Below, piece after piece: positions 14,741-39,437 of a stretch of 42,643 nt of DNA. Origin of the DNA: a virus; IMG/VR virus record IMGVR_UViG_3300047409_000303, positions 1 to 42,643 of that record; one strand, written 5' to 3'. Made by a program: the position numbers and the translations under genes. The notes under the pieces were generated by a model. That model saw only the letters and a program-made list of their open reading frames with translations, did not search any database and was not told where the DNA came from. The number at the start of each line of letters is the position of its first letter. The first letter of the stretch is position 1.

Positions 14741-17089
14741 CTACCTCTGCCGCTGCTGGAACGCCACGCTGATCGTGGACAGGTAGAGAGTCGTATCGTC
14801 TCCCCACACTTGCAGGCAGCCCGCGCCCTGGCCGGCGCATTGATCGACCCACCCGAGCGGCGTGTTGATCGGGCTCGATAGGTACTGGCTGCCGTCTACG
14901 CTCGTCGCTCCGGTGACAAGCGACGTGAACCGGCTCGTGCGCCGCGAGGCGTCCACGACGAGCGTCCCTCCGGGCGTGCCCATCTCGATGAAGTCCGTCG
15001 AGTCGCTGTAGTCGATCGAGTACCAGTTATCCCACTCCTCCGAGGTAGAGGCGGGAGCCGTGTTGATACCCGGCTGCACGGGACTGGAGATGGCGTTCAC
15101 GGTGCCGACGTTCGCTCGCAGCGGGCGGGTGAGCATCGCGTTCGTGGCGGGATCGACGAGGTAGCCGCGCAAGTCGAAGCCTTGCTGCCCGATGAGCGGG
15201 AACGCCTCGACGATGATCAGGTACGTCGTGTTGATCGCCGGGGTGAACGCCACGCTGTCGCCTTGGAGGACGCCGTTCGCGTCGTTCGACAACGCGAAGA
15301 AGTTCGAGCCGATGCCGCCGTTCGTGCTGATCAGGTACGCGCCGAAGCTGCCGTTGAACGTGACGCCCCATACGCCGTTCGTGATCGTCGCGGCGGTCTT
15401 GATCGTCGCTTGCGCCTTGCCGCCGAAGTACGCGATGTTCTTCCCCGCGGAGTCCTTCGACCGCTTGATGTTCCTGCCCGAGCCAGCGTTCAGTCCGGTG
15501 ACGGTCGGCTTGAGCTTCCCGCCGGTGATCGCGAAGTCCCCGGCGTGCGCGACTGTCCAGCGCGTCGCGAGGTCGTCCACGCTGAAGTCGTCGCTCTGGA
15601 AGCAGTCCACCCCGGCCTTGTATTGGACGCGGACGCCGTTGCTGGTCTGGATCGTGACGGGGTTCGCGTTCGGGCTGGTGAGCGTCACGATCGGACTAAC
15701 GATCCCGACGCTCACGGCGGGCATCGGGAACGTCAGCGGCTCTTTCGGGAACACGCCGTAATTCGTGCCCGTCGCGGCGCTGAAGTTCGTCACGCCCGGG
15801 CTGGTGCCGCTCTCTGTCATGCCGAGCCCGACGCTGCCGCTCGCGGGGACTACCGGGTCGTACATCGCCGCGAGGTGGATCCACGGACCCGCGCCCGCCG
15901 CCTGCCGCCACGCCTCGATGAGGTTCCCGCGACAAGTGAGCATGTATCGGTCGCCGACCGCGGCGGTGTGCGACACCGGGACCGAGAACAACGTGTATGG
16001 GGAGCCGACGCCTGCGCGGCCGAGGGTCACGAAGTCCCCGCCGCTCGCGGCGAAGTGAAGCTCCATGACGTTCGCGCTGCCGGTCAAGATCCCCGGGTTC
16101 GTGATCCGGGCCATCAGAGTGACCTTCGCGCCGCCGTTGTTATCGCCGCGCGTCCCGAGCGTGACCATGACCGCCTGGTCGGCCGCGAGGGGACCGGCGT
16201 TCCAGTACGCGCCGCCGTTCTGCGAGCCGGTCGAAGTGAGCGCGAACTGGTTGCTGATGATCTTCAGCTGCGGTCCGAACCCGACGAGCGGGCTGCTCGT
16301 CCACGACGCGCTCGGCGGAGGCCCGGCGTTCGCCCGCGTGCCGGAGTCCAGCAACGCCGGGACAGGCGGGGCGATGCCTCCGGGGACGACCGGCGGGAAT
16401 ACGCTCGACCCGCTCGACTGGAAGTTCACCGGCGCGCTACCCGCAGCTGGCCGCGTGTAGAGGTACGGGGACTGGCTCGCTATGTCGAACTCGATGCCGT
16501 CGTAATCGCAACAGTTCCAGCCGCCGTTATCCGTCCGCGTGACTCCCTTGACAAGCGCCGCTTCGTACATGATCCGCTCGCCGCGCGTGTCGTTCAACCC
16601 GTCGAGGGGAGGGCAGGATTCGCGGACGCGGATGGTGCGCTGCGAGCATCCGAGGCAGTCACTCCCGAGCTTCGAGTACAACCAGTGCCGACCGTACTCC
16701 AGCCCCGCGCACGTCGAGGCGACGAGGAGGCCATCGACGTGAAGGTTCCGCGCGGCGAACTGCTCCGGGCCGATCACGCCACCGCCGAGGCTGCCGAACC
16801 GCTGGCTGATCGTCCGCTTGATGTCGAGCGTCTGGAAGTCGAGCTTGCTGATGAGGCCGAGGAACTCGGCGCTCTCCGGGATCGTCGCGTCGTACCACGG
16901 AGCCGGGTCCGTCTGCGGAGCGACGAACGGGCCGACGCCGCCGATCTCGCGGGCGAGCACCGGGCACGGGTACACCTCCGGGACAGTCCAGTTCACGCCG
17001 CCGAGGCCGCGCCGGAGGTACTCCAGCGTGCGGTACCCGTTCGCGATCTCCACGCCGTCAATGTCGATGAATGGAAGCTCGCCGCTCAT
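14741..17089 (-). CDS. Minor tail protein, 782 aa
   Basis: Follows the tape measure gene with a TGATG overlap. It begins MSGELPFIDIDGVEIANGYR and has LGCSQRTIRVRESCPPLDG and NGGWNCCDYDGIEFDIASQS, a Cys-rich core often seen in actinophage tail-tip proteins. The later half is a beta-rich region (VMVTLGTRGDNNGGAKVTLM) with possible laminin-G-like folds. The position is that of the distal tail protein or tail hub. No enzymatic motif is seen. Confidence 0.7.
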   Translation of the reverse strand: MSGELPFIDIDGVEIANGYRTLEYLRRGLGGVNWTVPEVYPCPVLAREIGGVGPFVAPQTDPAPWYDATIPESAEFLGLISKLDFQTLDIKRTISQRFGSLGGGVIGPEQFAARNLHVDGLLVASTCAGLEYGRHWLYSKLGSDCLGCSQRTIRVRESCPPLDGLNDTRGERIMYEAALVKGVTRTDNGGWNCCDYDGIEFDIASQSPYLYTRPAAGSAPVNFQSSGSSVFPPVVPGGIAPPVPALLDSGTRANAGPPPSASWTSSPLVGFGPQLKIISNQFALTSTGSQNGGAYWNAGPLAADQAVMVTLGTRGDNNGGAKVTLMARITNPGILTGSANVMELHFAASGGDFVTLGRAGVGSPYTLFSVPVSHTAAVGDRYMLTCRGNLIEAWRQAAGAGPWIHLAAMYDPVVPASGSVGLGMTESGTSPGVTNFSAATGTNYGVFPKEPLTFPMPAVSVGIVSPIVTLTSPNANPVTIQTSNGVRVQYKAGVDCFQSDDFSVDDLATRWTVAHAGDFAITGGKLKPTVTGLNAGSGRNIKRSKDSAGKNIAYFGGKAQATIKTAATITNGVWGVTFNGSFGAYLISTNGGIGSNFFALSNDANGVLQGDSVAFTPAINTTYLIIVEAFPLIGQQGFDLRGYLVDPATNAMLTRPLRANVGTVNAISSPVQPGINTAPASTSEEWDNWYSIDYSDSTDFIEMGTPGGTLVVDASRRTSRFTSLVTGATSVDGSQYLSSPINTPLGWVDQCAGQGAGCLQVWGDDTTLYLSTISVAFQQRQR

Positions 17090-20000
17090 CAGCGCCTCGC
17101 CTTATAGGTGCTCGCGCTCGCCCCTGCGACCGCGACGACGTTCACGTCCGTCGAGGAGTCGGGCTTCTGCGCCGTCGCCTGAGTGTGCTTCTCGATGCGC
17201 TCCAGGAGCATCTCGATTCGCTGCATGCCGTACCCGCCGGTCGGCGTACCCGCCGCCGTCCCGGCGAGGCCCGCGCGGATCCCTCCCGCGTCCGGCGTCA
17301 CCGCCGCGCCGAGCTTCGCGCTGAGCCCGCTCGCGTCGAAGCCCCGGAGTAGCGTCGGAGCGAGACGCGTCCACCACGAGTCGAGGTCGCTCATCGGTCC
17401 CTTCTCCGTCGGGCTCTTGACCTTCAGGTGCGCCGCGATCACCGCCGCGACGGCTGCGGCGGCAGCGCCCACGGTCGGGATCGAGGCGCGCAACGCCGCG
17501 GCCAAGTCCTCGCCGATGCTATTGCCGCTCGCAGTCGCCATCCGCGCAAGCTCGGCGTAGTGCAGATCCCACGCGTGCTGGACGTTCTGTAGGTGCAGGA
17601 GCGTCCGGTCGTGCATCGACTTCAAGTGATCGCTGAGCCGCTGGTACTCGGCGTCCTTCGCGACGCGCTCTTTATCCGCCTTCTGCTGGAGATAGAACGC
17701 GTCCTTCGCGGCTTGCGCGTCGTTCAGCGCCTGCTTCGCGTTGAGCGTGTCGTTGTCGAAGCCCGCCTGCGCAGCCGCCTGAGCATCGGCGTCCGCTGCC
17801 TGCTGAGTGGTGATCGCCGCGCCTGCCTGCGCCTGCTGAGCGAGCGCGGTCTGCCACGTGTTGTACTGGTCGAGCAGCGTCGTCGCGTTCGAGTCCGCCG
17901 AGGCTGCGACCTTCGCGTCGTCGAGCGCGTTCGCCGCGGCGATGAACGTCGCCTGATCCGTGAGCCCCTGGTCGAACAAGCTCTTGGTGTTGTTGAACGC
18001 CTGCTGAGCAGCGATCAGGCTGGTGGCGATCGGGTCCGTTGCGCTCGCAGCCATGCCCTTGTTGAACGTGTTCCCGGCGAGCAGAGCGTCGTCCGTGTTG
18101 CTCTGGAGCGTCGCTCGGAGCGCGGCCATGTTCGCCGCCTGCTGAGCGAGGAGCTGGCTCCACGCCGCCGCCTGCTTCGCGGGGAGACTCGCGAGCGCCG
18201 CCGCCGCCGCGGACACGTCGCCCTCGACCTTCGCGACCGCCGCCGCCGCCTGCGCCTGCGCGATCTTGAACTCGGTCGGCGTCAGCTTCGCCTTCCACGA
18301 GTCGAGCCGCGCCTGCGCCTTCGTGAACCCCGCGTCGATGGTCTTGGTGGCGTGATCGACCTGAGCGTCGAACGCGGCCTGAGCGGCGGTGATCCACGTC
18401 TTATACGCCGTCTGGATCGCTGGCAGTTCTTTCTTCGTCGCCGCGCCCAGCCGCTCGGCGATCTTGTGCACCGCCGCTTCGGCTTGCGGAGCGAGCTTGT
18501 CGAACCCGTCCACGAGCCCGCTGATCGCACCCTTCGCGATCGGCTGGCCGATGAACCTCTTGCCGCCCTCCTCGACGGGGCTGAACGGGCTCAGGTGGCT
18601 GAGGCCGCTCTTGATCTCGTGCTCGGCTGCGCTCTTGATCATCCCGCCGAGCCCGGCGATTCCACTGATCGCGCCGTTCTTGATCGCGGAGCCGATCGAA
18701 GCGGCGAGGCCGAACGCCTGCCCGACGACCTGGTTCAACGCGGAGCTAACGGCTCCCCACAACGCGCCGGCCAGTCCGGAGAGCGCAGACACGGCGCTCT
18801 TGATGCCGTTGCCGATCGCCTCGCCGATCATCCTCGCCAGCGCGCCAGCGGTACCAGCGAGGCCGCGCAGGACAGACCCGATCATGCTCACCAGACCGTT
18901 CAGGATGTCCCTGACGATGTTCTTCAGTTCGCCCCACGCCGCTCCCCACCGGCCGTGGATCAGGTCGCTGAACAGTCGGATGACGTCCGCGATGACGTTG
19001 AGCTCGGTCTGCACGTACGTCTTGACTACCTGCAATCCAGCGCGAGCGAGAGGTCCGAATACGCTCCAGATTGCATCCCAATGCGCGCGGATCTGATCGA
19101 CGATGGTGCTGACGATCGTCGCGATGCTCTGCACGACGGTACGGATCGCGGTCGCCGCCTGCTGGAGCACCGCGACGACTTGCGGGCCGAAGCGGTTCCA
19201 CGCCGCGATCGCAGCGGGGATGATCGTCTGGCTGATGTAGTTGAACGCCGCGACCGCTCCGGCTCGGATCCCCGCCCACGCTCCGTCCATGATCGCGCGA
19301 GCGGTCGCGCTGCGCTGGTACAGAAGCGTCAGGCCGACGACGAGCGCGGCTATCGCGATGATCACGAGGCCGATCGGGTTCGCCGTCATCACGGCGTTCA
19401 GCGCGGCTTGCGCGATCGTGTACACCTTCACCGCCGTCGTCAGGACGACGAACGCCGCGGCTCCGATACCGATGGCTATCGCGACTTGCCTCCACGACCC
19501 GATGTTCTCGGTGATGAAGTTCCCTATGTCCTGGAGCACCTTCGCGACGTCGCCGAGGACGGTCGTAACGATCGCGACCGCGGCCGGGAGGTTCTCCGCG
19601 AGCATGCGGATGAACACGGTGAGCACCGGGATCATCTTCAACCCGATCTCCAGCTGGATCGTCTCGATCGTCGAGCGCAGCCCGGCCATCGCGCCGTTGA
19701 AGCCCTTGCTCTGAGCGTTCGCGAGTTGCTGCGCCTGCCCCGCCCTCGTGACCGCGGCGTGCTGCTTGTCCCACTGCTCCGTCGTCTGCCCGAGGATGAT
19801 CGACGCGGCGCGCGAGGCGTCGCTCCCGAAGATCGTGTTCAGCGTCGCCTGTCGCTGCTCCTGGCTCATCGCGCGGAGCTTCGGTCCCATCTGCTCGATT
19901 ACGCCGCGCATGCCGATGAACTTCCCGGCCGCGTCGAACGTGTGGACGCCCATGTCCTGCATCGCCTGCTTCGCCTGCTTGGTGTGCGGATTGAGGCGCT

Positions 20001-20679
20001 GAAGCATCGTCTTGAGGCTCGTCCCGGCGTCGCTGCCTTTGATCCCGGCGTTCGCCATCGCGGCGATCGCGGTCGTCGCGTCGCCGATGGGGATCCCGAG
20101 GCCGTGGAACGACTGCCCGGACTGCTGAAGCGCGAGCCCGACTTCGCTCATCGATGCGGTCGAGGCGTTCGCCGCTCCGGCGAAGTCATCGACGACGGTC
20201 CCGGCGTCCTTCGCTCGCAGGCCGAACGCGTGCAGCGAGTCGGCGGTGAGCGTCGCGGCGGTGGCGTTGTCGATCTGCGCCGCGGCGGACAGGAGAAGCA
20301 CGCCGTGCGCAGCCTCCATCGACTGCTTCATCGTGAACCCGCCCTTGCCCATCTCCAGCATCGCCGTCGCCGCGTCGTTCGCGCTCGTCGCGGGGAGGCG
20401 GAGATCCGCGCCGAGCGCGATCGCCTTCGCCTGCACGTCCTTAAGCGTCACGCCGCCGCTCTGCGCCGTCGCCTGTAGGACGTTCAGGGTCTGCTGGAAG
20501 TCCCCGGCGCTCTTGATCGGGTCGATGAACAACGCCTTCCCGATCGCGAGCCCGCCGAGCGCCGCCGCCGCTCCGGTAGCGATCTTCTTCACGGAGCCCA
20601 TGACGCCGCTCTCGACCTGGCTGTGGAAGCCCTTCGTGTCGGCGGTGATCCGTACGGCTTCCTCAGCGAGTACGCCCAT
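17089..20679 (-). CDS. Tape measure protein, 1196 aa
   Basis: The N-terminal 300 residues match the phage tail tape measure domain: LFIDPIKSAGDFQQTLNVLQ, LRLPATSANDAATAMLEMGK and ALQQSGQSFHGLGIPIGDA. A hydrophobic stretch lies near residues 390-460 (MTANPIGLVIIAIAALVV), followed by long Ala/Gln-rich coiled coil. At roughly 0.15 nm per residue the tail would be about 180 nm. It overlaps the assembly chaperone stop (TGATG). It occupies the tail lumen during assembly and is probably ejected with the DNA. Confidence 0.95.
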   Translation of the reverse strand: MGVLAEEAVRITADTKGFHSQVESGVMGSVKKIATGAAAALGGLAIGKALFIDPIKSAGDFQQTLNVLQATAQSGGVTLKDVQAKAIALGADLRLPATSANDAATAMLEMGKGGFTMKQSMEAAHGVLLLSAAAQIDNATAATLTADSLHAFGLRAKDAGTVVDDFAGAANASTASMSEVGLALQQSGQSFHGLGIPIGDATTAIAAMANAGIKGSDAGTSLKTMLQRLNPHTKQAKQAMQDMGVHTFDAAGKFIGMRGVIEQMGPKLRAMSQEQRQATLNTIFGSDASRAASIILGQTTEQWDKQHAAVTRAGQAQQLANAQSKGFNGAMAGLRSTIETIQLEIGLKMIPVLTVFIRMLAENLPAAVAIVTTVLGDVAKVLQDIGNFITENIGSWRQVAIAIGIGAAAFVVLTTAVKVYTIAQAALNAVMTANPIGLVIIAIAALVVGLTLLYQRSATARAIMDGAWAGIRAGAVAAFNYISQTIIPAAIAAWNRFGPQVVAVLQQAATAIRTVVQSIATIVSTIVDQIRAHWDAIWSVFGPLARAGLQVVKTYVQTELNVIADVIRLFSDLIHGRWGAAWGELKNIVRDILNGLVSMIGSVLRGLAGTAGALARMIGEAIGNGIKSAVSALSGLAGALWGAVSSALNQVVGQAFGLAASIGSAIKNGAISGIAGLGGMIKSAAEHEIKSGLSHLSPFSPVEEGGKRFIGQPIAKGAISGLVDGFDKLAPQAEAAVHKIAERLGAATKKELPAIQTAYKTWITAAQAAFDAQVDHATKTIDAGFTKAQARLDSWKAKLTPTEFKIAQAQAAAAVAKVEGDVSAAAAALASLPAKQAAAWSQLLAQQAANMAALRATLQSNTDDALLAGNTFNKGMAASATDPIATSLIAAQQAFNNTKSLFDQGLTDQATFIAAANALDDAKVAASADSNATTLLDQYNTWQTALAQQAQAGAAITTQQAADADAQAAAQAGFDNDTLNAKQALNDAQAAKDAFYLQQKADKERVAKDAEYQRLSDHLKSMHDRTLLHLQNVQHAWDLHYAELARMATASGNSIGEDLAAALRASIPTVGAAAAAVAAVIAAHLKVKSPTEKGPMSDLDSWWTRLAPTLLRGFDASGLSAKLGAAVTPDAGGIRAGLAGTAAGTPTGGYGMQRIEMLLERIEKHTQATAQKPDSSTDVNVVAVAGASASTYKARR

Positions 20680-22240: not shown

Positions 22241-22553
22241 GCAGAGCTTCGAGGATGGTCGCCTTGCTCGCGCGAGCGTCGATCTCGACGCCGCGGTTCT
22301 CCGCGAGCGTGACGAGCTCAGCCTTCGTCTTGGAGTCGAGGTCGTCCTCCGCGGCTGCAGATCCGTCTCCCTGGCTGGCCTTGACGAGCGGCGTCTCCGG
22401 CGACTGTCCCTTCGCGCTGCCGTCCGTGGCGTGCGTAGGGGCGTTCTCGGTGTGGAAGTACCCGTCGTCGCCGCCGAGGGTCTGCGTGTCGAGGAACGGC
22501 GCTGCGATCCCCTCCGGCGCGAAGCCGTGCGCGTGCGTGGTGTCCTTGGTCAT
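22233..22553 (-). CDS. Small acidic protein with HeH/SAP-like C-terminus, 106 aa
   Basis: ATG overlaps the connector stop (ATGA) with AGGAGG upstream. The first 65 residues are low complexity. The C-terminal 35 (DLDSKTKAELVTLAENRGVE then ARASKATILEALRG) fit the two-helix HeH/SAP fold found in many small phage head-neck proteins, which often bind DNA or the portal region. Function inferred from this motif and position only. Confidence 0.65.
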   Translation of the reverse strand: MTKDTTHAHGFAPEGIAAPFLDTQTLGGDDGYFHTENAPTHATDGSAKGQSPETPLVKASQGDGSAAAEDDLDSKTKAELVTLAENRGVEIDARASKATILEALRG

Positions 22554-23659
22554 GACGTCCTCCTGCTGGTCGGGTACGTGTCCGGGCTGAGCACGTACGT
22601 CGGCTTGCACGCTCCGTACGCGGCGAGGAACGAGTCCACCATCGCGAGGCCGGTCGTGCCCGCTTCGAATAGGTTCACCATGCGTTGCACGCGGATACCC
22701 TGCCGCGTCATCTCTACAACGCCGGAGGGCAGCGAGCATGCGAGGCCCGAGCACGCGAGGTAGAACTCGCGGCTGAGTTGCGCCGCCGCTCGCTTCGCGC
22801 TCTCGTTCGGCGGGTAGCCGTGCTGGTACGTGACCTGGAACGTGCCCGGCTGGTCGCCGTTCGCTGCGAGGTTCTGGCAGATCGGCCACGCGCCGCCGTC
22901 GGTGCGCACGAGTTCGTTGTTCGGGTCGAGGCGGTAGCTCGACGAGGGGAGCGGCACGCCGCCGATGAGCACCTCGACCACGCTCTGCGCGATGCCGGGG
23001 AGGATGATCTTCTGGAGCCACGCGCCGCAGGCGCACGGGTCGCCGTTGTCGTCGCGCCAGCCGCGGCCGAGCCAGACGACGTGCCCGCGGGAGAGGAACT
23101 GCGTCCCGACCCCGGCTCCGCCCCAGCACCCGAAGTTCTGGCACGGACGGATGACGCTCTGGCACCACCCGGAGAACGTGCGGCCGGACAGTTCGTACAG
23201 GACCTCGCTCGCCATGCTCACCGCCGAGGAGAGGCACGCGTCCACGGCGACGTCCGAGAAGCACGCGAGCACGTCCTGCGTCGTGCACCAGTCCGTACAC
23301 GGGCCGATCACGCGGCGAGGCGCGTGGTCGTAGAACACGACGTCGAACTCCGGCGTGTCGATCGTCGTCCCGGAGAAGTCGAGGTGCCACCACGCTTTGT
23401 ACGGGCCGGGGGAGGAGTCGATCGCGGTCGTCGTATCCGCGAGGATCCAGTCGTACCGCACCTTCCCGTTCGGAGCGTCCGTGACGACGGCGGTGCCGTC
23501 CACGAGGACCGCGGATCCGAACTGGCTGCGGAGCCGGAACTTCACGCTCGTGACGCTCGTGAGGTCGATCGGCCCGACGCTGCCGTTGCTCTGGATCTGC
23601 TTCAGCGTGTCGAGGACGTCCGGCGCGGTGTTCCCCACGAACATGTTGATGGTCGCCAC
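22550..23659 (-). CDS. Head-tail connector fused to a BppU-like N-terminal domain, 369 aa
   Basis: Starts at GTG. Residues 1-115 (MFVGNTAPDVLDTLKQIQSN and FDVVFYDHAP) resemble the N-terminal beta domain of phage baseplate upper (BppU-like) proteins, which holds modular tail fibres. Residues 120-369 (SDVAVDACLSSAVSMASEVL, YELSGRTFSGWCQSVIRPC, then YQHGYPPNESAKRAAAQLSR) match an actinophage head-to-tail adaptor with many Cys. The combination in one chain is unusual. It is next to the 30-repeat protein gene. Confidence 0.7.
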   Translation of the reverse strand: MATINMFVGNTAPDVLDTLKQIQSNGSVGPIDLTSVTSVKFRLRSQFGSAVLVDGTAVVTDAPNGKVRYDWILADTTTAIDSSPGPYKAWWHLDFSGTTIDTPEFDVVFYDHAPRRVIGPCTDWCTTQDVLACFSDVAVDACLSSAVSMASEVLYELSGRTFSGWCQSVIRPCQNFGCWGGAGVGTQFLSRGHVVWLGRGWRDDNGDPCACGAWLQKIILPGIAQSVVEVLIGGVPLPSSSYRLDPNNELVRTDGGAWPICQNLAANGDQPGTFQVTYQHGYPPNESAKRAAAQLSREFYLACSGLACSLPSGVVEMTRQGIRVQRMVNLFEAGTTGLAMVDSFLAAYGACKPTYVLSPDTYPTSRRTS

Positions 23660-23663
23660 GCGA

Positions 23664-25553
23664 TCAGCCTACCTCTCCGGGGTGCGGGTCGCTCACGACT
23701 CCGCCGGTCGGCGAGTCGGCGTAACGCGTCAGGATCTCGGGCTGCGGATCGTCGTACGCCCCGGCGCGCGGATCCTCGCACGCGAAGATGATCGTGATCA
23801 CGGGATGCGCGAAGTGGTGCACGACGAGCGTGAACGCCGCCGCCTGCGGCTGCGTCGCGCTCGACACGCGCCCGACGATCCGCGTCAAGCTCGCCGCCTG
23901 CGCTTGCGTCGCGGAGCACGTGACGTGCGTGGAGCCCTTCTGCGCGGTGCAGGACGCCGCCTGCGGCTGCGTCGCGGCGCACCGATGGTTTACCCCTCGC
24001 AGGCACGCCGCCGCCTGAGGCTGCGTCGTAGACGAGGCTCGCGGGACCGAGCGGATCACGAGCGCCGCTTGCGCTTGCGTCGCCGCGATCTGCTCCGCGA
24101 CGCTCCGCTTGCACGCCGCTACCTGAGCCTGCGTCGCCGCGCACGACACGATCGTCGCCTTCGACTTGATGCAGACCGCTACCTGAGCTTGCGTGGTGCC
24201 GACGATGCGGTTCACGCTCCTCGACGAGGCTGCGCTCTGCGCCTGCGTCGCAGCGCAGGAATGCCCGGCGCTCCGCGAGCACGCCGCTGTCTCCGTCTGA
24301 GTCGCCGCGGAGGAGTGCCCGATCGTCCTCGTGAGCGCGGCGGATTGCGCCTGCGTCGCCGAGCAGAACACGAGCACCGCCTTGATCTTGACGCAGGCCG
24401 CGAGTTGCGCCTGCGTCGTCGAGCACGAGCGGTTCACGATCCGCGTGAGCGCGGCGGCTTGCGCCTGCGTCGCGGCGCTCGTGTGCCCGACGCTGCGCGA
24501 CGTCGCGGCGCTCTGCGCTTGCGTCGCCGAGCACGAGCGGCCGGGCCGTCGAATGCACGCGGCTGTCTCGGTCTGCGTGGCGGCGATGGTCTGCGCGATC
24601 GAGCGCGTTACTGCCGCCGCCTGCGCCTGCGTCGCCGCCACGATCCGACCCACGCTCCGGAGCGTTGCGGCCACCTGAGCCTGCGTCGCGCTACAGATCC
24701 TCCCGGCGCTGCGCTTGCACGCCGCGCTCTGCGCCTGCGTGGTGCCAATGATCCTCCCGACGTTGCGCGCCTGAGCGGCGAGTTGCGCCTGCGTCGCAGC
24801 GCACGCGATCTGCACCGCCTTCAACCCCACGGCGACCGCCGCCTGCGCCTGCGTGGCCGCGATGATCCGGTTCACGGTTCGCGTCGAGGCCGCGCTCTGC
24901 GCTTGCGTCGCGGCGCACGAGTGCCCGGCGGTGCGCCTACACGCCGCCGTCTCCGTCTGCGTGGCGGCGATGATCCGGTTCGCGGTGCGCAGGCAGGCGG
25001 CGAGTTGCGCTTGCGTCGCGGCGCTCGTGATGTTCACGCGCTTCAGCGCGATGCATACCGCGGCCTGCGCTTGCGTCGCGGCGATGATCCGGTTGACCGT
25101 CCGCGTGAGCGCCGCCGCTTGCGCTTGCGTGGCCGCGCTCGTGTGCCCGACCGAGCGGGTGAGAGCGGCGCTCTGCGCCTGCGTGGCGGAGCAGCGGTGC
25201 CCCGGCGAGCGGCTGCACGCCGCTGTCTCCGTCTGCGTCGCCGCGATCGTCTGGTTCACGATCCGCGTGAGCGCCGCTGCCTGCGCCTGCGTAGCGGCGA
25301 TCGAGCGGCCGACCTGGCGGGTCTGCGCGGCTGCCTGCGCCTGCGTAGCGGGAACGACCCGCCCGACTTGCCGGGTCTGCGCCGCTGCCTGCGCCTGCGT
25401 CGCCGCGACGACCCGGTTCACCGTCCGCGTGATGTCCGCCGCCTGCGCCTGCGTAGCGGCGCACGAGATCGGGAACACCGCCGCGCTGACGTCCGCGCCG
25501 CCGATGATCTGCGTGATCGTCCGGACGGTGCGAGTGCGCCAGCCGCCGGCCAT
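23664..25553 (-). CDS. Repeat protein with 30 copies of an 18-residue unit, 629 aa
   Basis: After 31 residues the chain consists of 30 repeats covering residues 32-582, with consensus AATQAQAAALTRxVNRII; 25 are 18 residues long, four are 20 and one is 21. The TQ pair is present in every repeat. A 47-residue Pro/Asp-rich C-terminus follows. The regular period suggests a solenoid or elongated rod, as in fibre shafts or spacers. It is next to the connector with the BppU-like domain and to the beta-helix protein, so a fibre role is likely. Similar ATQ repeats occur in other phage proteins of unknown function. No enzymatic residues are seen. Confidence 0.75.
   Translation of the reverse strand: MAGGWRTRTVRTITQIIGGADVSAAVFPISCAATQAQAADITRTVNRVVAATQAQAAAQTRQVGRVVPATQAQAAAQTRQVGRSIAATQAQAAALTRIVNQTIAATQTETAACSRSPGHRCSATQAQSAALTRSVGHTSAATQAQAAALTRTVNRIIAATQAQAAVCIALKRVNITSAATQAQLAACLRTANRIIAATQTETAACRRTAGHSCAATQAQSAASTRTVNRIIAATQAQAAVAVGLKAVQIACAATQAQLAAQARNVGRIIGTTQAQSAACKRSAGRICSATQAQVAATLRSVGRIVAATQAQAAAVTRSIAQTIAATQTETAACIRRPGRSCSATQAQSAATSRSVGHTSAATQAQAAALTRIVNRSCSTTQAQLAACVKIKAVLVFCSATQAQSAALTRTIGHSSAATQTETAACSRSAGHSCAATQAQSAASSRSVNRIVGTTQAQVAVCIKSKATIVSCAATQAQVAACKRSVAEQIAATQAQAALVIRSVPRASSTTQPQAAACLRGVNHRCAATQPQAASCTAQKGSTHVTCSATQAQAASLTRIVGRVSSATQPQAAAFTLVVHHFAHPVITIIFACEDPRAGAYDDPQPEILTRYADSPTGGVVSDPHPGEVG
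23808..25460. repeat. 54-bp tandem coding repeat array, about 30 units
   Basis: Each 54-bp unit encodes one 18-residue repeat; on the plus strand the words GCCTGCGCTTGCGTC and close variants recur throughout. Synonymous differences are scattered, so the array is old or diversifying, not a recent exact expansion. Five units are six or nine bases longer. The sequence invites slippage and recombination, so copy number may vary among relatives. Confidence 0.9.
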
Positions 25554-26978
25554 CTAGCTTCGCCTCATGCGAGCGGGGGTGGACGCTGCCGGGACGAACT
25601 CCGTCGCCGAGATATCCGGCGCGGAGCCCATGTAGTGCAGCGGCGCTCCGTCGCTGCCGACGCTGAACGTGACGCCGCTGATGCTCAGCGTCCCGGCGTT
25701 GATTACGGGGCTCGGCGTCGTCGTGACGGCGCTCGTGTCCATCAGGGGGTTGCTCGTCAGGTCGCTCGAGCCCTGGCCGCTGGCGGTGACCCAAGCGGCG
25801 AGGCTGTTACACCCCGTGGCGTTGAAGTTGGAGAAGAACCCGAGCGGCGAATACTGCACGTTATTGCTCTCCGTGAACGTCGCTAGGGCGGGGCTCACGA
25901 TGTAGTCGATCAGCGCGAGGTTCGACGCCGCCGCGAGCGCAGAGAAGATGTTGTTGTGCACGCGGAGCAGCGTGCCTTTCGTCGCCCCGCCGAGCACCGA
26001 GTTGTTGTAATACCGCAGCGGCGTCGAGTACGACGAGCCCGCGCCGGAGAACGGCGTGCACTCGATCGAGTTGTTGTAGATCATCCAGTTCTCGGGCATC
26101 CCCGCGACGGTGTTCCCGTTCGCGTCGATGAGGATCCCGTTCTGGACGTTCCGCATACGGTTGTAGCGGATGGTGCTGGTGCGCCCCGCGCCGGGAGCGG
26201 TCGCGTCGTCGTTGTAGAACCCGACGCCTTCGAACGCGTCGTGGAAGTAGTTCCCCTCGATCAGGATGTTCCGGAACCGCGTCGTGACGCACTGCCCGTC
26301 GGGGTCCATGACGTCGTAAATCTCGCAGAACCGGACGATCGCGTTCGGGCTCTTGGAGTAGATCCCGTGGAGGCCGAAGTTGTACGTGGCGAACTGCGTG
26401 CCGGTGTGGTGGATCTGGCAGCCCTCGACGAGCAGACTGTCGCCCCAATTGATCATCCCGGAGTCGCGCGTGTCGTACACCTCGCAACCCTTGAACTGCC
26501 AGTTGGTGTCGGCGGCGTTGCTGCACTCGTGCCCGTACTCCGTCGCGAACCCTCCGAGGAGACAGTTCTGCGTCACGATCATGTCCTTAGCGGTGCCGGT
26601 GCTCGCGCCGAGGACGTTCTTCAGGATCAGGTTGTCGATCGTCACGTTCGTGCGCGCTGCGGGCACGAGGCACCCGAGGCTGATCGTCGCTCTGCCGGTG
26701 CCGTAGCTGCCGAACACGAACGGGACGCCTGCGCTCGCGCCGTTCTGCGGAGGCGCGAGGACGGTAGTCCCGAACGTCGTGCCGCCCTCAAAGAACACGC
26801 CGTCCCCGGCGGCGAACGTGAAGCCGTTCACTTTCGCGATCGTCGCCCAGGCGTTCGCGGGGCTCGTGCCGGACAGGCCGTCACTTCCGCCCGACTTCAC
26901 GTAGTACGCCGTCTTTCCGGCGTTCGTGATGTCGGTCGGCGTGATCACCGCCGGAGGGGTGTAGACGTACAGCGTCAC
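25554..26978 (-). CDS. Right-handed beta-helix protein, candidate depolymerase, 474 aa
   Basis: The start (AGKTAYYVKSGGSDGLSGTS, then ANAWATIAKVNGFTFAAGDG) is the usual opening of a pectate lyase-type right-handed beta-helix. The core has repeated coil units (NVTIDNLILKNVLGASTG, SLLVEGCQIHHTG, NAIVRFCEIYDVM, NILIEGNYFHDAFEG, TSTIRYNRMRNVQNGILI). Such folds in phage tail spikes bind and often cleave surface glycans, although catalytic residues cannot be assigned here. The gene lies between the repeat protein and a string of small structural-like genes. Confidence 0.8.
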   Translation of the reverse strand: MTLYVYTPPAVITPTDITNAGKTAYYVKSGGSDGLSGTSPANAWATIAKVNGFTFAAGDGVFFEGGTTFGTTVLAPPQNGASAGVPFVFGSYGTGRATISLGCLVPAARTNVTIDNLILKNVLGASTGTAKDMIVTQNCLLGGFATEYGHECSNAADTNWQFKGCEVYDTRDSGMINWGDSLLVEGCQIHHTGTQFATYNFGLHGIYSKSPNAIVRFCEIYDVMDPDGQCVTTRFRNILIEGNYFHDAFEGVGFYNDDATAPGAGRTSTIRYNRMRNVQNGILIDANGNTVAGMPENWMIYNNSIECTPFSGAGSSYSTPLRYYNNSVLGGATKGTLLRVHNNIFSALAAASNLALIDYIVSPALATFTESNNVQYSPLGFFSNFNATGCNSLAAWVTASGQGSSDLTSNPLMDTSAVTTTPSPVINAGTLSISGVTFSVGSDGAPLHYMGSAPDISATEFVPAASTPARMRRS

Positions 26979-27736
26979 CGGCCCGTCCAGACTCGCCGGA
27001 CCGGATTCGGGTAGATGTGGCGGTGCGCGGAGAGGTCGCCTCCGCCCATGACGCTGATGCTGGTCGTGCGCGCCGCTCCTGCGCGGCTGATCGCAGCGAA
27101 CGGCGTGCCGTTACCCGCGATGCCGGTGTCGGTGAGGTCGTGCATCACCGTCCACGCTCCGCCGTTCGGGCAGTACCAGGTGCGGATCCTCGACCCGATG
27201 CACGTCACGCCCACGCCGTCGCCTTCTTTCACGTTCTGCGTGAACGTCCCGCCGAGGTACACGACGGCGGCGTTGATGAACCGCGCGAGCTTGAAGTTCG
27301 TCCCCGCGGATAGCTCGACGGAGTAGTGCGTGAAGTTCGCGAAGCGGTTCGTGCAGCGAGTGCAGACGTAGTACGTGTCGAGGCTCTGCGTGTACGCGGC
27401 GAACTGGCACCACCCCTCCTGATCCGGAACCGCGAGCGGTCCTCCGATCGAGCCGTAGAGGTTGCTCTGTAGCGGCCCGCCGACAGCGTTGTGAGGGATG
27501 CTGTCCGTGGTCATCGACGAGTCGCCGTTAACGTACGGGCCGGTGGCGTCCCAGCCCGCGCGAGCGGTGAGCGCCTGGCTCGCTCCCGACTCGAACGTGT
27601 CGAGTACCGGCGTGCCTGTCGGCCCTGCCGTGAGCGGGACGACGGCGGGGCTCGCGCCGATCCAGTCGTATCCGAAGTCGCGGTCGTTGCCGCCGTTCCT
27701 GCGCGCGCGGCGAGGCCGCAGCCCGGCGGTAGTCAC
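26975..27736 (-). CDS. Probable structural or fibre protein, 253 aa
   Basis: Starts at GTG overlapping the stop of the gene upstream. It has an Arg-rich N-terminus, then TPVLDTFESGASQALTARAG, CTRCTNRFANFTHYSVELSA and SRIRTWYCPNGGAWTVMHDL, which is the pattern of a concanavalin-type lectin-like beta sandwich. Cysteines occur in one CxxC. It overlaps the beta-helix gene start (ATGA). A receptor or glycan-binding tail role is inferred. Confidence 0.6.
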   Translation of the reverse strand: MTTAGLRPRRARRNGGNDRDFGYDWIGASPAVVPLTAGPTGTPVLDTFESGASQALTARAGWDATGPYVNGDSSMTTDSIPHNAVGGPLQSNLYGSIGGPLAVPDQEGWCQFAAYTQSLDTYYVCTRCTNRFANFTHYSVELSAGTNFKLARFINAAVVYLGGTFTQNVKEGDGVGVTCIGSRIRTWYCPNGGAWTVMHDLTDTGIAGNGTPFAAISRAGAARTTSISVMGGGDLSAHRHIYPNPVRRVWTGR

Positions 27737-28488
27737 GAGCCCGACCCGACGAGGCGCGAGGGGCGGTAGATGTGAGGCTTCACGCTGGCGGGCGGATCGT
27801 CGGTGAGGATCGCGGTGTACGCGTTGCAGATGGAGATCGTCGTGAACGACTGGCTGCTCGTGAAGTTGTTGACGCCGATGTTGTCCTTCCACGCCAGTCC
27901 CGTCTCGACGTTCGGGGCGGCTCCGGGGTCGGCGGGGTGCACGCCGAGCGTCATCGATGCGGGCGCTGTCACGCTCCATGTCGTCGCGCTCGGGATCGTC
28001 ATGCCGAAGCAGACGATGCCGAGGCCGTTCGCGCTCGACGCGTTCGATGCCTGCCCGGTCGTCGTCACGGGTGACGCGGTAGCGTTCGCCCTGGTCGCCA
28101 CCACTGTCGTGTCGAACTGCGCGTTGTTGTTCCCCGGCGTCCAGGCGTTCAGGACGGCTGCGCGCCTAACGGCGGCGGAGGCGAGCGTGAGCGTCACGGT
28201 GTCCGACGAGAGGATCGCTCGGGTCGTCTTGAGGCACCAGAAGATCCCGAACGTGAGTCCCGAGGCGTTCACAGTCGCGAGGCTGAATGAGTAGACGTTC
28301 GCCGCGCCTGCCTGCGTCGAGTTGTCCGCGATCGTGGAGATACTCGCGCTGGTGAGGTTGCATGCCCAGCAGCCGAAGATGGTGCTCCCGGCGGGGATGG
28401 TGCTACTCGGAGCGCCGATCCCCATCGTCGTCGCGGATGCCGCGCCGCTGAACTGCCCGTTGACGCCGCTGACGACGGTGAATGCCAC
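27733..28488 (-). CDS. Probable structural protein, 251 aa
   Basis: Starts at GTG. Small residues Ala/Ser/Thr dominate (NGQFSGAASATTMGIGAPSS) and it is predicted to be all beta; MTIPSATTWSVTAPASMTLG and NVETGLAWKDNIGVNNFTSS are typical of phage tail fibre or head fibre proteins. The C-terminus ends HIYRPSRLVGSGS, which resembles the end of the 253-aa protein (HIYPNPVRRVWTGR), so the two probably share an ancestral tip. No enzymatic motif. Confidence 0.6.
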   Translation of the reverse strand: MAFTVVSGVNGQFSGAASATTMGIGAPSSTIPAGSTIFGCWACNLTSASISTIADNSTQAGAANVYSFSLATVNASGLTFGIFWCLKTTRAILSSDTVTLTLASAAVRRAAVLNAWTPGNNNAQFDTTVVATRANATASPVTTTGQASNASSANGLGIVCFGMTIPSATTWSVTAPASMTLGVHPADPGAAPNVETGLAWKDNIGVNNFTSSQSFTTISICNAYTAILTDDPPASVKPHIYRPSRLVGSGS

Positions 28489-28498
28489 GAAGCCTCCC

Positions 28499-29146
28499 CT
28501 AGCCGATCGCTTCTACTTCCATGTACGCCTGCGCGTTGACCGTCGCAGGGGGAGTGATGCGCATGGCGATAGCGCGCTGCGTGCCGGTCGTGGAGCCGCA
28601 CTCGACTTCGCGTCCGAGCGGCAGCGGGTACACGAACAAGCCGCCGTTCGGGCTGACGTACCAGGAGCGGACGCGCACGAGCGTCGTCGGCTCAGCGGTG
28701 TGGCTACCCGAGGCGGTCGGCGCGGAGCCGCCCGTGGCGACGCCGCGCGTCTGCTGGATCGTCGGAGCGGTGCCGCCAGTGCCAGCCGCGCCTTGCGTGG
28801 AGACGCATACCTCGACGTAGACGGGTACCGCGCTGGCGGTCACGCCGTCGAAGCTGATCGCCGCCTCGACGCACGCCAGGCCGTGCCCGGCCGGGGCGAT
28901 CGTGTCGAGGATCGTGTGCACCGCGGCGGGAGCGGCGAAGATCGCGCTGTTGACGGCGTACGCGACGGCGGTCGAGCCGCCGCCGACGCCGCCGCGCAGG
29001 ATCGCGCGTCCGAGCGGCGTGTCGAGGTCGAGCCAGCGCGGCAGACGGTCGCCGTGCTCGAAGTCGAGCGGCAGCGGCCACACCGCGGGTCGCTGGCTCT
29101 TGCGCTTGCGCCACGGCGGGAGCTCTCGGCGGATGATGGTGATCAT
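28499..29146 (-). CDS. Probable structural protein, 215 aa
   Basis: ATG overlaps the upstream TGA. A basic N-terminus (MITIIRRELPPWRKRKSQRP) precedes a beta-rich body (ILRGGVGGGSTAVAYAVNSA, RVRSWYVSPNGGLFVYPLP). Lack of hydrophobic helices and its place in the fibre block support a virion role. Function not recognised. Confidence 0.55.
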   Translation of the reverse strand: MITIIRRELPPWRKRKSQRPAVWPLPLDFEHGDRLPRWLDLDTPLGRAILRGGVGGGSTAVAYAVNSAIFAAPAAVHTILDTIAPAGHGLACVEAAISFDGVTASAVPVYVEVCVSTQGAAGTGGTAPTIQQTRGVATGGSAPTASGSHTAEPTTLVRVRSWYVSPNGGLFVYPLPLGREVECGSTTGTQRAIAMRITPPATVNAQAYMEVEAIG

Positions 29147-29376
29147 GGCTTCACCGCGTCGTCGTCGTGGACGAGTTGCTCCCCGATGACCTTCCCGTCG
29201 TCGTCCTCATACTCCACGCGAAGATCCGTCCGCGGCGAGTACTTGCCGTTCGGATGCTCGGTGCCCGCCAGCGGCGGGTGAACCTGGTGACCCTGCTCGA
29301 TCTCGATCACTTCGGTGACCTTCCCGACGATGCCTGTCCTGCGGCTGCGGATTCTGGTGCCGACCTTGAAGGTCAT
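29143..29376 (-). CDS. Small SH3-like or KOW-like protein, 77 aa
   Basis: The protein reads MTFKVGTRIRSRRTGIVGKV then TEVIEIEQGHQVHPPLAG and a final acidic segment. The opening motif (Gx(R/K)hRxRxxGxhGxVxEh) is like the small beta-barrel KOW/SH3 proteins seen near phage tail genes. Coupled to both neighbours by ATGA overlaps. Function unknown. Confidence 0.55.
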   Translation of the reverse strand: MTFKVGTRIRSRRTGIVGKVTEVIEIEQGHQVHPPLAGTEHPNGKYSPRTDLRVEYEDDDGKVIGEQLVHDDDAVKP

Positions 29377-29783
29377 GGGGTGAAGTCCACCGTGATCGTG
29401 TAGCTGATGCTCTCGCCGGTCGCGAGGACAGTCGAGCCATGCGACGCGTGCACCCAGCACACGCCGCCGGTCGGAGGCGAGCCGGAACCTACGACGTCGA
29501 ACAGCGCGACTTCCGCGATCGTCGGCGTGCCCGCCGCCGTGATCGTCCCGGTCACCTGAACCTTCGAGTTCCCCTGCGCGCCGGCCACTGTGCTGATCGT
29601 GCCGGTCGTGCGCGCTTCGGTGGTGCCGGTCGTCGTCTGGATGCCGGTGTCGGTCACGAGCGCCGTAGAGACGCCGGTGCCCCACTGGATGAACTTCGGT
29701 TCGGTCTGTGTCGGGGTGGAGCCAACGTGCCTCGCAGCCGTGATGGCCTTCCCGACGTTGACCACGAATGCAGCGTTGGCCAT
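29373..29783 (-). CDS. Probable structural protein, 136 aa
   Basis: Residues such as MANAAFVVNVGKAITAARHV, PKFIQWGTGVSTALVTDTGI and PTIAEVALFDVVGSGSPPTG match small all-beta phage proteins of tail fibre or head decoration type. The protein has one Cys. It is placed in the same block as the other structural candidates. Exact role unknown. Confidence 0.6.
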   Translation of the reverse strand: MANAAFVVNVGKAITAARHVGSTPTQTEPKFIQWGTGVSTALVTDTGIQTTTGTTEARTTGTISTVAGAQGNSKVQVTGTITAAGTPTIAEVALFDVVGSGSPPTGGVCWVHASHGSTVLATGESISYTITVDFTP

Positions 29784-30413: not shown

Positions 30414-31088
30414 TCAGGTGCTCTGCGACGAGTAGCCGCAGAACGCGGTCGGCTGCGTGTTGTCCCAGAAGTACGCGCCGCCGATGAGGCTCCCGGCGAT
30501 GCCCGCGGGCCAGTCGCCGTACACGTTCGCCCAGTTCGGGTTCTGCCTCGTGAAGCCCTTGAAGGCCGGGAGGAAGAAGTCGTTCTCCAGCTTCGACGCG
30601 TCGAACTGCCAGAAGCTCATCGGGAACACCCAGCGGATGTACCGGTTCGGCGGATCGACCTGACGGTCGTTCGTCCACGCGTCCGTCCAGAACTCGACTG
30701 CGACCGGCGGCTGCGGAGTCGCCGAGCACGAGAGCTGGTTGGGGAACACGTTGCCGACGGGGACCGGCAGCGTCGAGGTATCGACGAGGACACCGGAGCC
30801 CGTGAGAAGCTCGATCAGGGCGGGGTTCAGCTTCGTAAGCTGGAACGCGAGGTTGAACCGCAGGAGCTTGTCGAAGCCCTTATACGACAAGTCGATGCAG
30901 TCGCAACCTCCGAGCACCTCTTTCGCCTCGCCGTCCTTGATCTCCGGCGTGAAGTCCACCGACATGATCGAGTCGGTGACGACGTGGTTGTTCGCGCCGC
31001 CCTTGAAGGTGCCGTCGCTGTTGAGGCGAGTGAACCGGGCCTTGCAGATGTGGATGCTGCCCGGGCAGATCGCTGTGGCTTGTGCCAT
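30414..31088 (-). CDS. Major tail protein (tail tube), 224 aa
   Basis: Resembles actinophage major tail proteins: ICPGSIHICKARFTRLNSDG, NNHVVTDSIMSVDFTPEIKD, and CIDLSYKGFDKLLRFNLAFQ, then LTGSGVLVDTSTLPVPVG. The length is usual for the family. In this genome it lies directly downstream of the capsid genes and not next to the tail assembly chaperones, about 9 kb away. Assignment is by motif. Confidence 0.7.
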   Translation of the reverse strand: MAQATAICPGSIHICKARFTRLNSDGTFKGGANNHVVTDSIMSVDFTPEIKDGEAKEVLGGCDCIDLSYKGFDKLLRFNLAFQLTKLNPALIELLTGSGVLVDTSTLPVPVGNVFPNQLSCSATPQPPVAVEFWTDAWTNDRQVDPPNRYIRWVFPMSFWQFDASKLENDFFLPAFKGFTRQNPNWANVYGDWPAGIAGSLIGGAYFWDNTQPTAFCGYSSQST

Positions 31089-37831: not shown

Positions 37832-38436
37832 TTCAGCCTCCGCTTCAGGGCCTTCCGCGCCACGCGTAGGCGCAGCTGGTCGCGGGGATCGTTCACGACG
37901 AGGCCGCTCGCGACGAGGGCGAGCGACTCGTTCCCCGCAGCGACTAGTGCCCGCTCCCGCTCGATCGGGAACCCGGGGACGTTCACGGCCAGGATGCCGA
38001 TCAGTTCGCGGCGACCCTGGTATCCGCGCCAGTCGCCGCTCGGCGTCGCGGCGCGCAACGCTTCGACCGTCGCGTCGTCGAGGTTCTTCGCGAGCCGTCC
38101 GCAGAACCAGCCGCCGTGCTCGTCGTCCCCGGCGCGGACGTACGCCGCCACGGTGCCGGTGTTCTCGTAGTGCGCGACGGCTTGCTCGCTCGACACGCGC
38201 AACCCGGCGTGCGTGGTGTGCAGCGTGATCTTCCCGACGTCGATCTCCGACCCGTCGTCGAGCTGGTAGCCGGACAGGTGGAAGTACCGGTACCCGCTCT
38301 GCGATCGGGGCGGCGTGACGTTCGGCATCGCGAGGTGCGGCGTGCCCCACGCGCAGAAGTGTCCGCTGATCGTGTCGCCGTCGATCCGTAGCGGCGTCGG
38401 CCGCGAGAAGCCCGGGTTCTTGAACGCCTCGATCAT
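37828..38436 (-). CDS. Capsid-module protein next to the protease, 202 aa
   Basis: ATG overlaps the protease stop (ATGA). It contains PGFSRPTPLRIDGDTISGHF, TLHTTHAGLRVSSEQAVAHY, then VNVPGFPIERERALVAAGNE, a pattern common in the second half of the maturation module of actinophages. The N-terminal part resembles a second, inactive copy of the prohead protease fold (GHFCAWGTPHL). An accessory capsid-maturation role is inferred. Confidence 0.65.
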   Translation of the reverse strand: MIEAFKNPGFSRPTPLRIDGDTISGHFCAWGTPHLAMPNVTPPRSQSGYRYFHLSGYQLDDGSEIDVGKITLHTTHAGLRVSSEQAVAHYENTGTVAAYVRAGDDEHGGWFCGRLAKNLDDATVEALRAATPSGDWRGYQGRRELIGILAVNVPGFPIERERALVAAGNESLALVASGLVVNDPRDQLRLRVARKALKRRLK

Positions 38437-39437
38437 CGCCTTCCCCTCTTGTCGAAGTGCTCGTTCAGGATCGCCATCGCCACTTCGACGCCAGCGCGGG
38501 AGGCGGCGGCGTCCTCGCCGGGCTCGCTGCCGTCCGGCTTCGCGGGCGGGAACTTGATCGTGGTGTCCTTCCCGTCGATCGTCACGACGACCTGGCCGTC
38601 CATGCCCGGCCAGCCGTTCACGGCGTCCGTGATATCCGCGATCGCCTCCGCGGCGTCGCTGTTCGCGTCCTGCGGGTCCGCCTCGTCGTCGCCTCCGCTC
38701 GCCGGGCCGACAGGGAACGGCGCGAACGGCAGCGTCACGCTCACGACCATGCGGCCGTCCTCGCGCCGCGCGTGGCGGAGGGTCATCGCCGCGCCGGCCA
38801 CTATCGCGATGCGAGCGTTCTCGAACGCCGGGAACGGGACGAGCGTCGCGCCGAGGATGGTGCCGTCGAGGACGTTCAGGGTGCCGCCGAACATCGCTTC
38901 GATCTCGTCGGCGGGGTCCTCCGGCGGGATGATCTCTGCCTCGTTCACGGCCAGGTCGATGCTGATACCGGTGAGCATCCCCTCGCGGACGAGGCGCTCC
39001 GCTTCGATGCCCGCCTCGCTGGTGTCGAAGATCCCCGCGCCGACGATCTCCTCGCCTGCGCGGTCGAGTGTCTCGATGCGCCCGGCGATCGCGGCCGGGC
39101 CGGGGTCGCCGAAGCCGTGCGCGCTGGTCGTCTGCGCCATCAGCGGGATCGGTAGCTCGCGCCAGTTCAGCGCGCCTGCCGTGATGATGCGGCCGTCTCC
39201 GGTGTCCACGCCCTCGAACGCGATCGCGCCGCTCCACGCCGCGCCGACCGCGACGTCTACCTCTTGAGTAGCCATGCTTCCTCCTGCGGTCAGACCGGCT
39301 CGCCGGTCGAGTAGCTCTCCGAGTTCCTGCGCCTCCGCTTCCGTAAGGACGCGGTGGACGTGCTCGTCTCTCGTGTCGCCCGTGAAGCGGCTGCGGTTCG
39401 GGTCTGCCTCTCCGGGCTCGAACGGGATCGTCGTCAT
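38433..39437 (-). CDS. Capsid maturation protease, 334 aa
   Basis: HK97-type (U35-like) prohead protease: FEGVDTGDGRIITAGALNWR, LPIPLMAQTTSAHGFGDPGP with His107, GMLTGISIDLAVNE with Ser159 as likely nucleophile, and VPFPAFENARI. The first 54 residues are not part of the usual domain and carry DPNRSRFTGDTRDEHVHR, shared with the 132-aa protein at 3823-4221. The ATG at 39437 overlaps the previous stop (ATGA); an internal ATG at 39275 behind AGGAGG could give a second, shorter product without the peptide. The Asp/Gly/Pro-rich C-terminus is scaffold-like. Confidence 0.85.
   Translation of the reverse strand: MTTIPFEPGEADPNRSRFTGDTRDEHVHRVLTEAEAQELGELLDRRAGLTAGGSMATQEVDVAVGAAWSGAIAFEGVDTGDGRIITAGALNWRELPIPLMAQTTSAHGFGDPGPAAIAGRIETLDRAGEEIVGAGIFDTSEAGIEAERLVREGMLTGISIDLAVNEAEIIPPEDPADEIEAMFGGTLNVLDGTILGATLVPFPAFENARIAIVAGAAMTLRHARREDGRMVVSVTLPFAPFPVGPASGGDDEADPQDANSDAAEAIADITDAVNGWPGMDGQVVVTIDGKDTTIKFPPAKPDGSEPGEDAAASRAGVEVAMAILNEHFDKRGRR

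Follow-up and report, generated by a model that had tools for sequence, protein, structure and literature searches.

The window analysed here is the whole 42,643-nt stretch of DNA of the IMG/VR virus record IMGVR_UViG_3300047409_000303. Its minus-strand gene order begins with a portal, a Mu F-like protein and a protease-like protein, followed later by a probable tail tube protein, and goes on with the small gene at 29373-29783, several other proteins, a gene coding for a protein with tandem repeats, a head-tail adaptor and the tape measure. The features considered are the following:

41026-42630, minus strand: portal
39434-41767, minus strand: Mu F-like head morphogenesis protein
38433-39437, minus strand: protease-like protein
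30414-31088, minus strand: probable tail tube protein, from position and appearance
29373-29783, minus strand: Gp80-like small protein of 136 aa with homologues beside repeat genes; proposed fibre base or anchor
28499-29146, minus strand: 215-aa protein between the Gp80-like and repeat genes; possible fibre or adsorption component, from position only
27733-28488, minus strand: 251-aa Ser/Thr-rich protein; possible fibre component, from position only
26975-27979, minus strand: ORF whose C-terminal part is weakly similar, in profile comparison, to ConA-like inserts of the repeat proteins of contigs L249 and L250
25554-26978, minus strand: 474-aa protein directly upstream of the repeat gene, parallel beta-helix-like by eye
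23664-25553, minus strand: repeat protein gene (ORF, translation and composition), without Pfam, PHROG or PDB family
25458-25553, minus strand: N-terminal 32 residues ahead of the first unit (unit parsing)
23805-25457, minus strand: array of 30 TQ units, residues 33-583 (unit parsing and shuffle test)
23667-23804, minus strand: C-terminal 46-residue non-repeat tail, holding most acidic residues (translation)
22550-23659, minus strand: head-tail adaptor directly downstream of the repeat gene (PHROG_783, E 1.1e-48, residues 121-364)
17089-20679, minus strand: tape measure

The repeat gene starts with an ATG and encodes a protein of 629 aa with a pI of 11.1. Packing within the operon is tight: the upstream stop codon is directly followed by the ATG of the repeat gene, and the start of the following gene lies 5 nt past its stop. 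With a GC3 of 0.90, similar to that of the neighbouring genes, and a dN lower than dS (see below), the repeat ORF behaves as a true gene. No relative of the protein was found in Pfam, PHROGs or the PDB, and it matched no tape measure profile.

The usual unit length is 18 residues (25 of the 30 units); it rises to 20 in units 8, 12, 20 and 24 and to 21 in unit 28. The consensus is roughly A-T-Q-A-Q-x-A-A-x-x-R-x-V-G/N-R/H-x-x-A. TQ is kept in every unit, with the second Q changed to E in four of them; in the 18-residue units T2, Q3 and A7 are invariant and R11 nearly so, and turn positions 13-14 are occupied by G, N or P in most units. Alanine makes up 27% of the array, and the repeat region contains 52 K+R versus 6 D+E (pI 11.6). 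From one TQ to the next the distance is 17-21 residues in all 29 steps, whereas 20,000 shuffles of the repeat protein gave a mean of 0.008 such steps and a maximum of 2; therefore, the array is not due to chance. The first-pass annotation had described thirty 18-residue units of precise period at residues 32-582 (23808-25460). The repeat gene, the number of units and the strictly kept TQ were confirmed, while the uniform length has to be given up for the five units of 20-21 residues and the limits had to be moved by one codon.

Cysteines within the units are confined to position 9 and the next-to-last position (17). Both are present in 9 of the 30 units, a significant within-unit association (Fisher P 6e-4), and no association was found across neighbouring units (P 0.95). 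The distance between the two cysteines is 8 residues in the 18-residue units and grows to 10-11 in the long units, so that the insertion of the latter lies between them. Judged from these positions, paired cysteines flanking a variable loop would fit a hairpin, or one coil, per unit.

The array carries traces of its own history. Long units recur at a distance of 12 units (8/20 and 12/24), as do units with TQTE (5/17 and 10/22), and unit identity at lag 12 is 0.61 versus 0.46-0.53 at other lags; thus, one old block duplication is visible. Apart from lag 12, unit identity is about 50% at the protein level and about 60% at the DNA level whatever the lag, and the longest exact DNA repeat within the gene is 22 nt. 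The dN/dS values between two internal 8-unit blocks of the duplicated block were approximately 0.29/0.71. The array is thus old and preserved for its protein sequence under purifying selection, and is not prone to slippage. The only other contig with this gene, IMGVR_UViG_3300045284_000156 (L002, L014 and L215; 43,500 bases), matched the window at 100% identity across the 15 kb that were compared, the repeat gene with its 30 units included. Among distant phages the array length does differ, with about 5 units in L252 and L261 and, at the other end of the range, 29 TQ-like motifs in the 1087-aa protein of L242.

Relatives were searched for with exact DNA-pattern scans for spaced TQxQ codons. 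Similar arrays were found in about ten other viral records, myo- and podophages among them (contigs L016/L108, L124/L144, L125, L143, L174, L176, L210, L219 and L220), with L016/L108 being a myophage-like contig with, by eye, a tail sheath downstream. TQxQ, a basic turn and the 18/20 spacing are shared by the window, L016, L125, L143, L174, L210, L253 and others, and acidic residues are scarce in the arrays of the relatives too. In a joint alignment across phages the TQ/Q columns are kept and length changes fall in the loop. In L252 a LamG domain (PF13385, 1.4e-11) is fused to the repeats, six further contigs show LamG-type fusions by eye, and in L016 the array is split by an insert that looks CBM-like by eye and had no match in PDB or Pfam. 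The window protein has no LamG domain, unlike several of these relatives.

A tblastn search with the L125 array retrieved MW202615 and MW202796, named records with the titles Podoviridae and Myoviridae sp.; their 18-residue repeats mostly lack TQ but have the basic turn. The same search with the window protein and two relatives against phages found nothing, probably in part due to low-complexity masking, and DNA patterns proved the better tool. The pattern scans also returned matches that were set aside. Most of those in genome contigs came from reading frames within bacterial SD-type repeats, many viral ones were plain TQTQ/TPTQ low-complexity proteins, and two related virus contigs (L112/L166) carry GIAxLSA-type units with an occasional STQxQ, which is a different repeat. 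The same DNA pattern picked up another virion-like family with GQTQGQL(T/A)xQQ repeats in L007/L008, L005, L027 and L153. The 17-motif array of L253 (7386-9047) has 18- and 20-residue units in nearly regular alternation, which suggests a higher-order structural period. Since the repeat profile A4 also scores bacterial periodic ORFs, it was used solely within Gp80-bearing viral contigs; in viral control loci it scored 2/129 at E<1e-3, with low scores. Literature searches found nothing relevant on this repeat class, and the searched libraries and papers seem to contain no account of the TQ-repeat family or of the pairing presented next.

The small protein encoded at 29373-29783 lies on the same strand as the repeat gene, about 4 kb upstream with about four genes between. 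In 7 other phages it has homologues next to repeat genes, with which it shares 36-48% identity. Six of the eight aligned homologues matched PF23140, the fibre I protein Gp80 of podophage GP4, above the cut-off (best 2.3e-7), whereas the window protein alone gave no match to this family at E<=1. The profile of the set had a single PDB match at E<=1, a weak one (E 0.043) to 8jou_a, 'Virion-associated phage protein', in what we take to be an entry of podophage GP4. In MW202796, a small gene annotated 'tail collar fiber protein', which is the one matching PF23140 at 2.3e-7, is directly followed by the repeat gene and then by 'tail fiber' genes.

With a profile that some of the members had themselves seeded, Gp80-like homologues were found near the repeat gene in nine loci (the window and 8 others) versus 0/127 control viral loci and, at the record level, in 12/13 repeat-bearing records (11/12 once a near-duplicate was dropped) versus 0/50 controls; the 43-kb contig of the repeat-bearing record L176 lacks such a gene. 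The window protein alone finds seven other members (E 1e-7 to 1e-28), and tblastn with a Gp80-like protein against 50,697 named phages retrieved only MW202796 and MW202615, the same pair as the repeat search. In the reverse test, Gp80-like proteins as the sole starting point led to 25 viral contigs, four known and 21 new. A repeat ORF lay downstream on the same strand in 18 of the 21 new contigs, several of which are closely related so that independent cases are fewer than 18, and the remaining three stop 97, 243 and 776 nt further on. This two-way linkage shows a shared function of the repeat and Gp80-like proteins, short of proving one common fibre.

The genes between the two were also inspected. 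The 215-aa protein had no family match, and the 474-aa protein none in families or phages. A likeness of 27733-28488 to domains fused to repeats in L125, L250 and L220 looked plausible by eye and failed when tested. The C-terminal part of 26975-27979 reached, in one comparison, an hmmsearch E of 0.001 and an hhalign P of 0.009 against the ConA-like inserts. The head-tail adaptor has about 120 extra N-terminal residues, similar by eye to phage fibre or baseplate N-terminal domains and without a family match, and the Mu F-like protein is extended at its C-terminus by a long region that matches an ADP-ribosyltransferase exoenzyme below the threshold (E 0.11). Since the relatives of the adaptor are mostly from phages of Actinomycetota, a host of this phylum is likely for the window virus.

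We consider it fairly probable that the 30-unit array serves as an extended, mostly beta shaft or linker in an adsorption fibre built on a Gp80-like base. Of the functions that the first-pass annotation had offered, the fibre shaft or length spacer gains support because of the Gp80-type linkage in unrelated phages and the fusion to LamG or CBM-like domains. The array, its recurrence in other phages, the linkage in both directions to Gp80-like proteins and the LamG fusion in relatives are observations, whereas the virion location, oligomeric state, fold and role of the repeat protein are inferred.

One point on which the competing readings diverge is the fold. A length of 18 residues corresponds to exactly five helical turns, and AlphaFold predicted units 13-19 of the window to be almost entirely helix (pLDDT 78, pTM 0.47), which, together with the alanine content, would suit a spacer or ruler comparable to a tape measure, in the form of a long alpha-helix or coiled coil. 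However, most units have a turn residue at positions 13-14, the exact 18-residue register is broken by the 20- and 21-residue units, and the virus has a separate tape measure gene. Most relatives contain 1.2-1.6 Gly/Pro per 18 residues and many are richer in Thr/Val/Ile; units of one of them, modelled with a more diverse alignment, came out all-beta (pLDDT 63, pTM 0.52). Both models are of monomers, and they disagree at modest confidence each. Fold searches gave no match at E<0.001, the weak top PDB matches, obtained with the all-beta model, being mainly beta-solenoids (best E 0.69). The array may form the solenoid proposed at first: the relative was modelled as all-beta and the window segment as helix, both at low to moderate confidence. 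Because of the Gly/Asn/Pro turns, the Thr/Val/Ile-rich relatives, the loop insertions and the cysteine pairing, a mainly beta-structured array is tentatively favoured, and we regard the helical ruler as unlikely.

The other readings concern what the protein does. Its strongly basic composition, with a scarcity of acidic residues that is common to the relatives, could point to an internal or DNA-binding virion protein instead of an external fibre part; the linkage to a fibre family, the fusion to lectin-like domains acting outside the virion and the paired cysteines, which suggest exposure to an oxidising medium, make this very improbable. Even less credit can be given to slippage altering the number of units in what would then be a phase-variable antigen or a variable decoy on the surface. 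The array is tandem and its length differs between distant phages, but with units of 54, 60 or 63 nt any gain or loss leaves the frame intact, and the short exact repeats, the even divergence at all lags except for the old 12-unit duplication, the purifying selection and the identical unit number in the second copy of the virus all speak against phase variation as initially suggested; nothing in the analysis supports a decoy. Another reading is a multivalent string, in which each unit would give a strand or hairpin to one bead subunit, Gp80-like or from a neighbouring gene, and the unit number would fix the number of beads threaded. The linkage in both directions with one small protein agrees with it, as does the neck fibre of cyanophage A-1(L), in which about 14 small trimeric beads are joined via N-terminal beta-hairpins (PMC10966104), while the Gp80-like profile had no match to the A-1(L) structures in the PDB; we give this string little weight. 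We are similarly doubtful of the broader proposition that TQ arrays are a widespread fibre-assembly device whose units dock Gp80-like or other small subunits, with unit number setting both length and valency.

For the shaft or linker reading, the following arrangement can be proposed. The product of the repeat gene would be a virion protein, with the array extending as shaft or linker from a fibre base formed by the Gp80-like protein of the same gene cluster. Each unit would probably be a beta-hairpin or one solenoid coil, consisting of a TQxQ strand, a turn (RSVGR, RTVNR or RSPGH) and a return strand; the units of 20-21 residues would carry a longer turn, and Cys9 and Cys17 may staple some units after virion release. 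Reach or flexibility would be set by array length, and binding would come from the lectin-like domains, which are fused in relatives and possibly encoded by separate genes in the window virus. The TQ-repeat protein probably represents a widespread component of phage adsorption fibres that has so far gone undescribed. A repeat family absent from Pfam, PHROG and PDB thereby receives a role that can be tested, and is connected with a type of fibre for which one podophage structure is known. As genomes of sipho-, myo- and podophage type are among those with the pair, it may account for a common but unannotated part of the apparatus with which phages adsorb, and the reach of a fibre might be read from the length of its array.

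Fibre components with short repeats are already known from phages; the TQ-repeat family itself appears to be new within this kind. In the adenovirus-type triple beta-spiral, a trimeric shaft with conserved hydrophobic core positions, units of 15-20 residues have a Gly/Pro/Asn turn and loops of variable length. The window units are likewise short, with such turns and variable loops, but they lack a strong hydrophobic core pattern, have the conserved TQxQ and the paired cysteines, and gave no fold match. Likeness to virion proteins with LamG (PF13385) is confined to the several relatives with this domain at the N-terminus. To Gp80 of GP4, the resemblance is through the partner at 29373-29783, whose set matches PF23140, and not through the repeat protein; Gp80 of GP4 itself is not known to have such an array. 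The neck fibre of A-1(L), gp82-gp81-gp80, is an analogy, as no homology to gp82 was found with the Gp80-like profile in the PDB at E<=1. There, small neck base proteins carry long flexible fibres with repeated elements and a carbohydrate-binding end (PMC10966104), and the likeness lies in the small base protein, the repeated middle, the carbohydrate-binding end and the adjacent genes. In A-1(L), however, repetition is achieved with many copies of one protein, whereas in the window virus the repeats are written within one chain.
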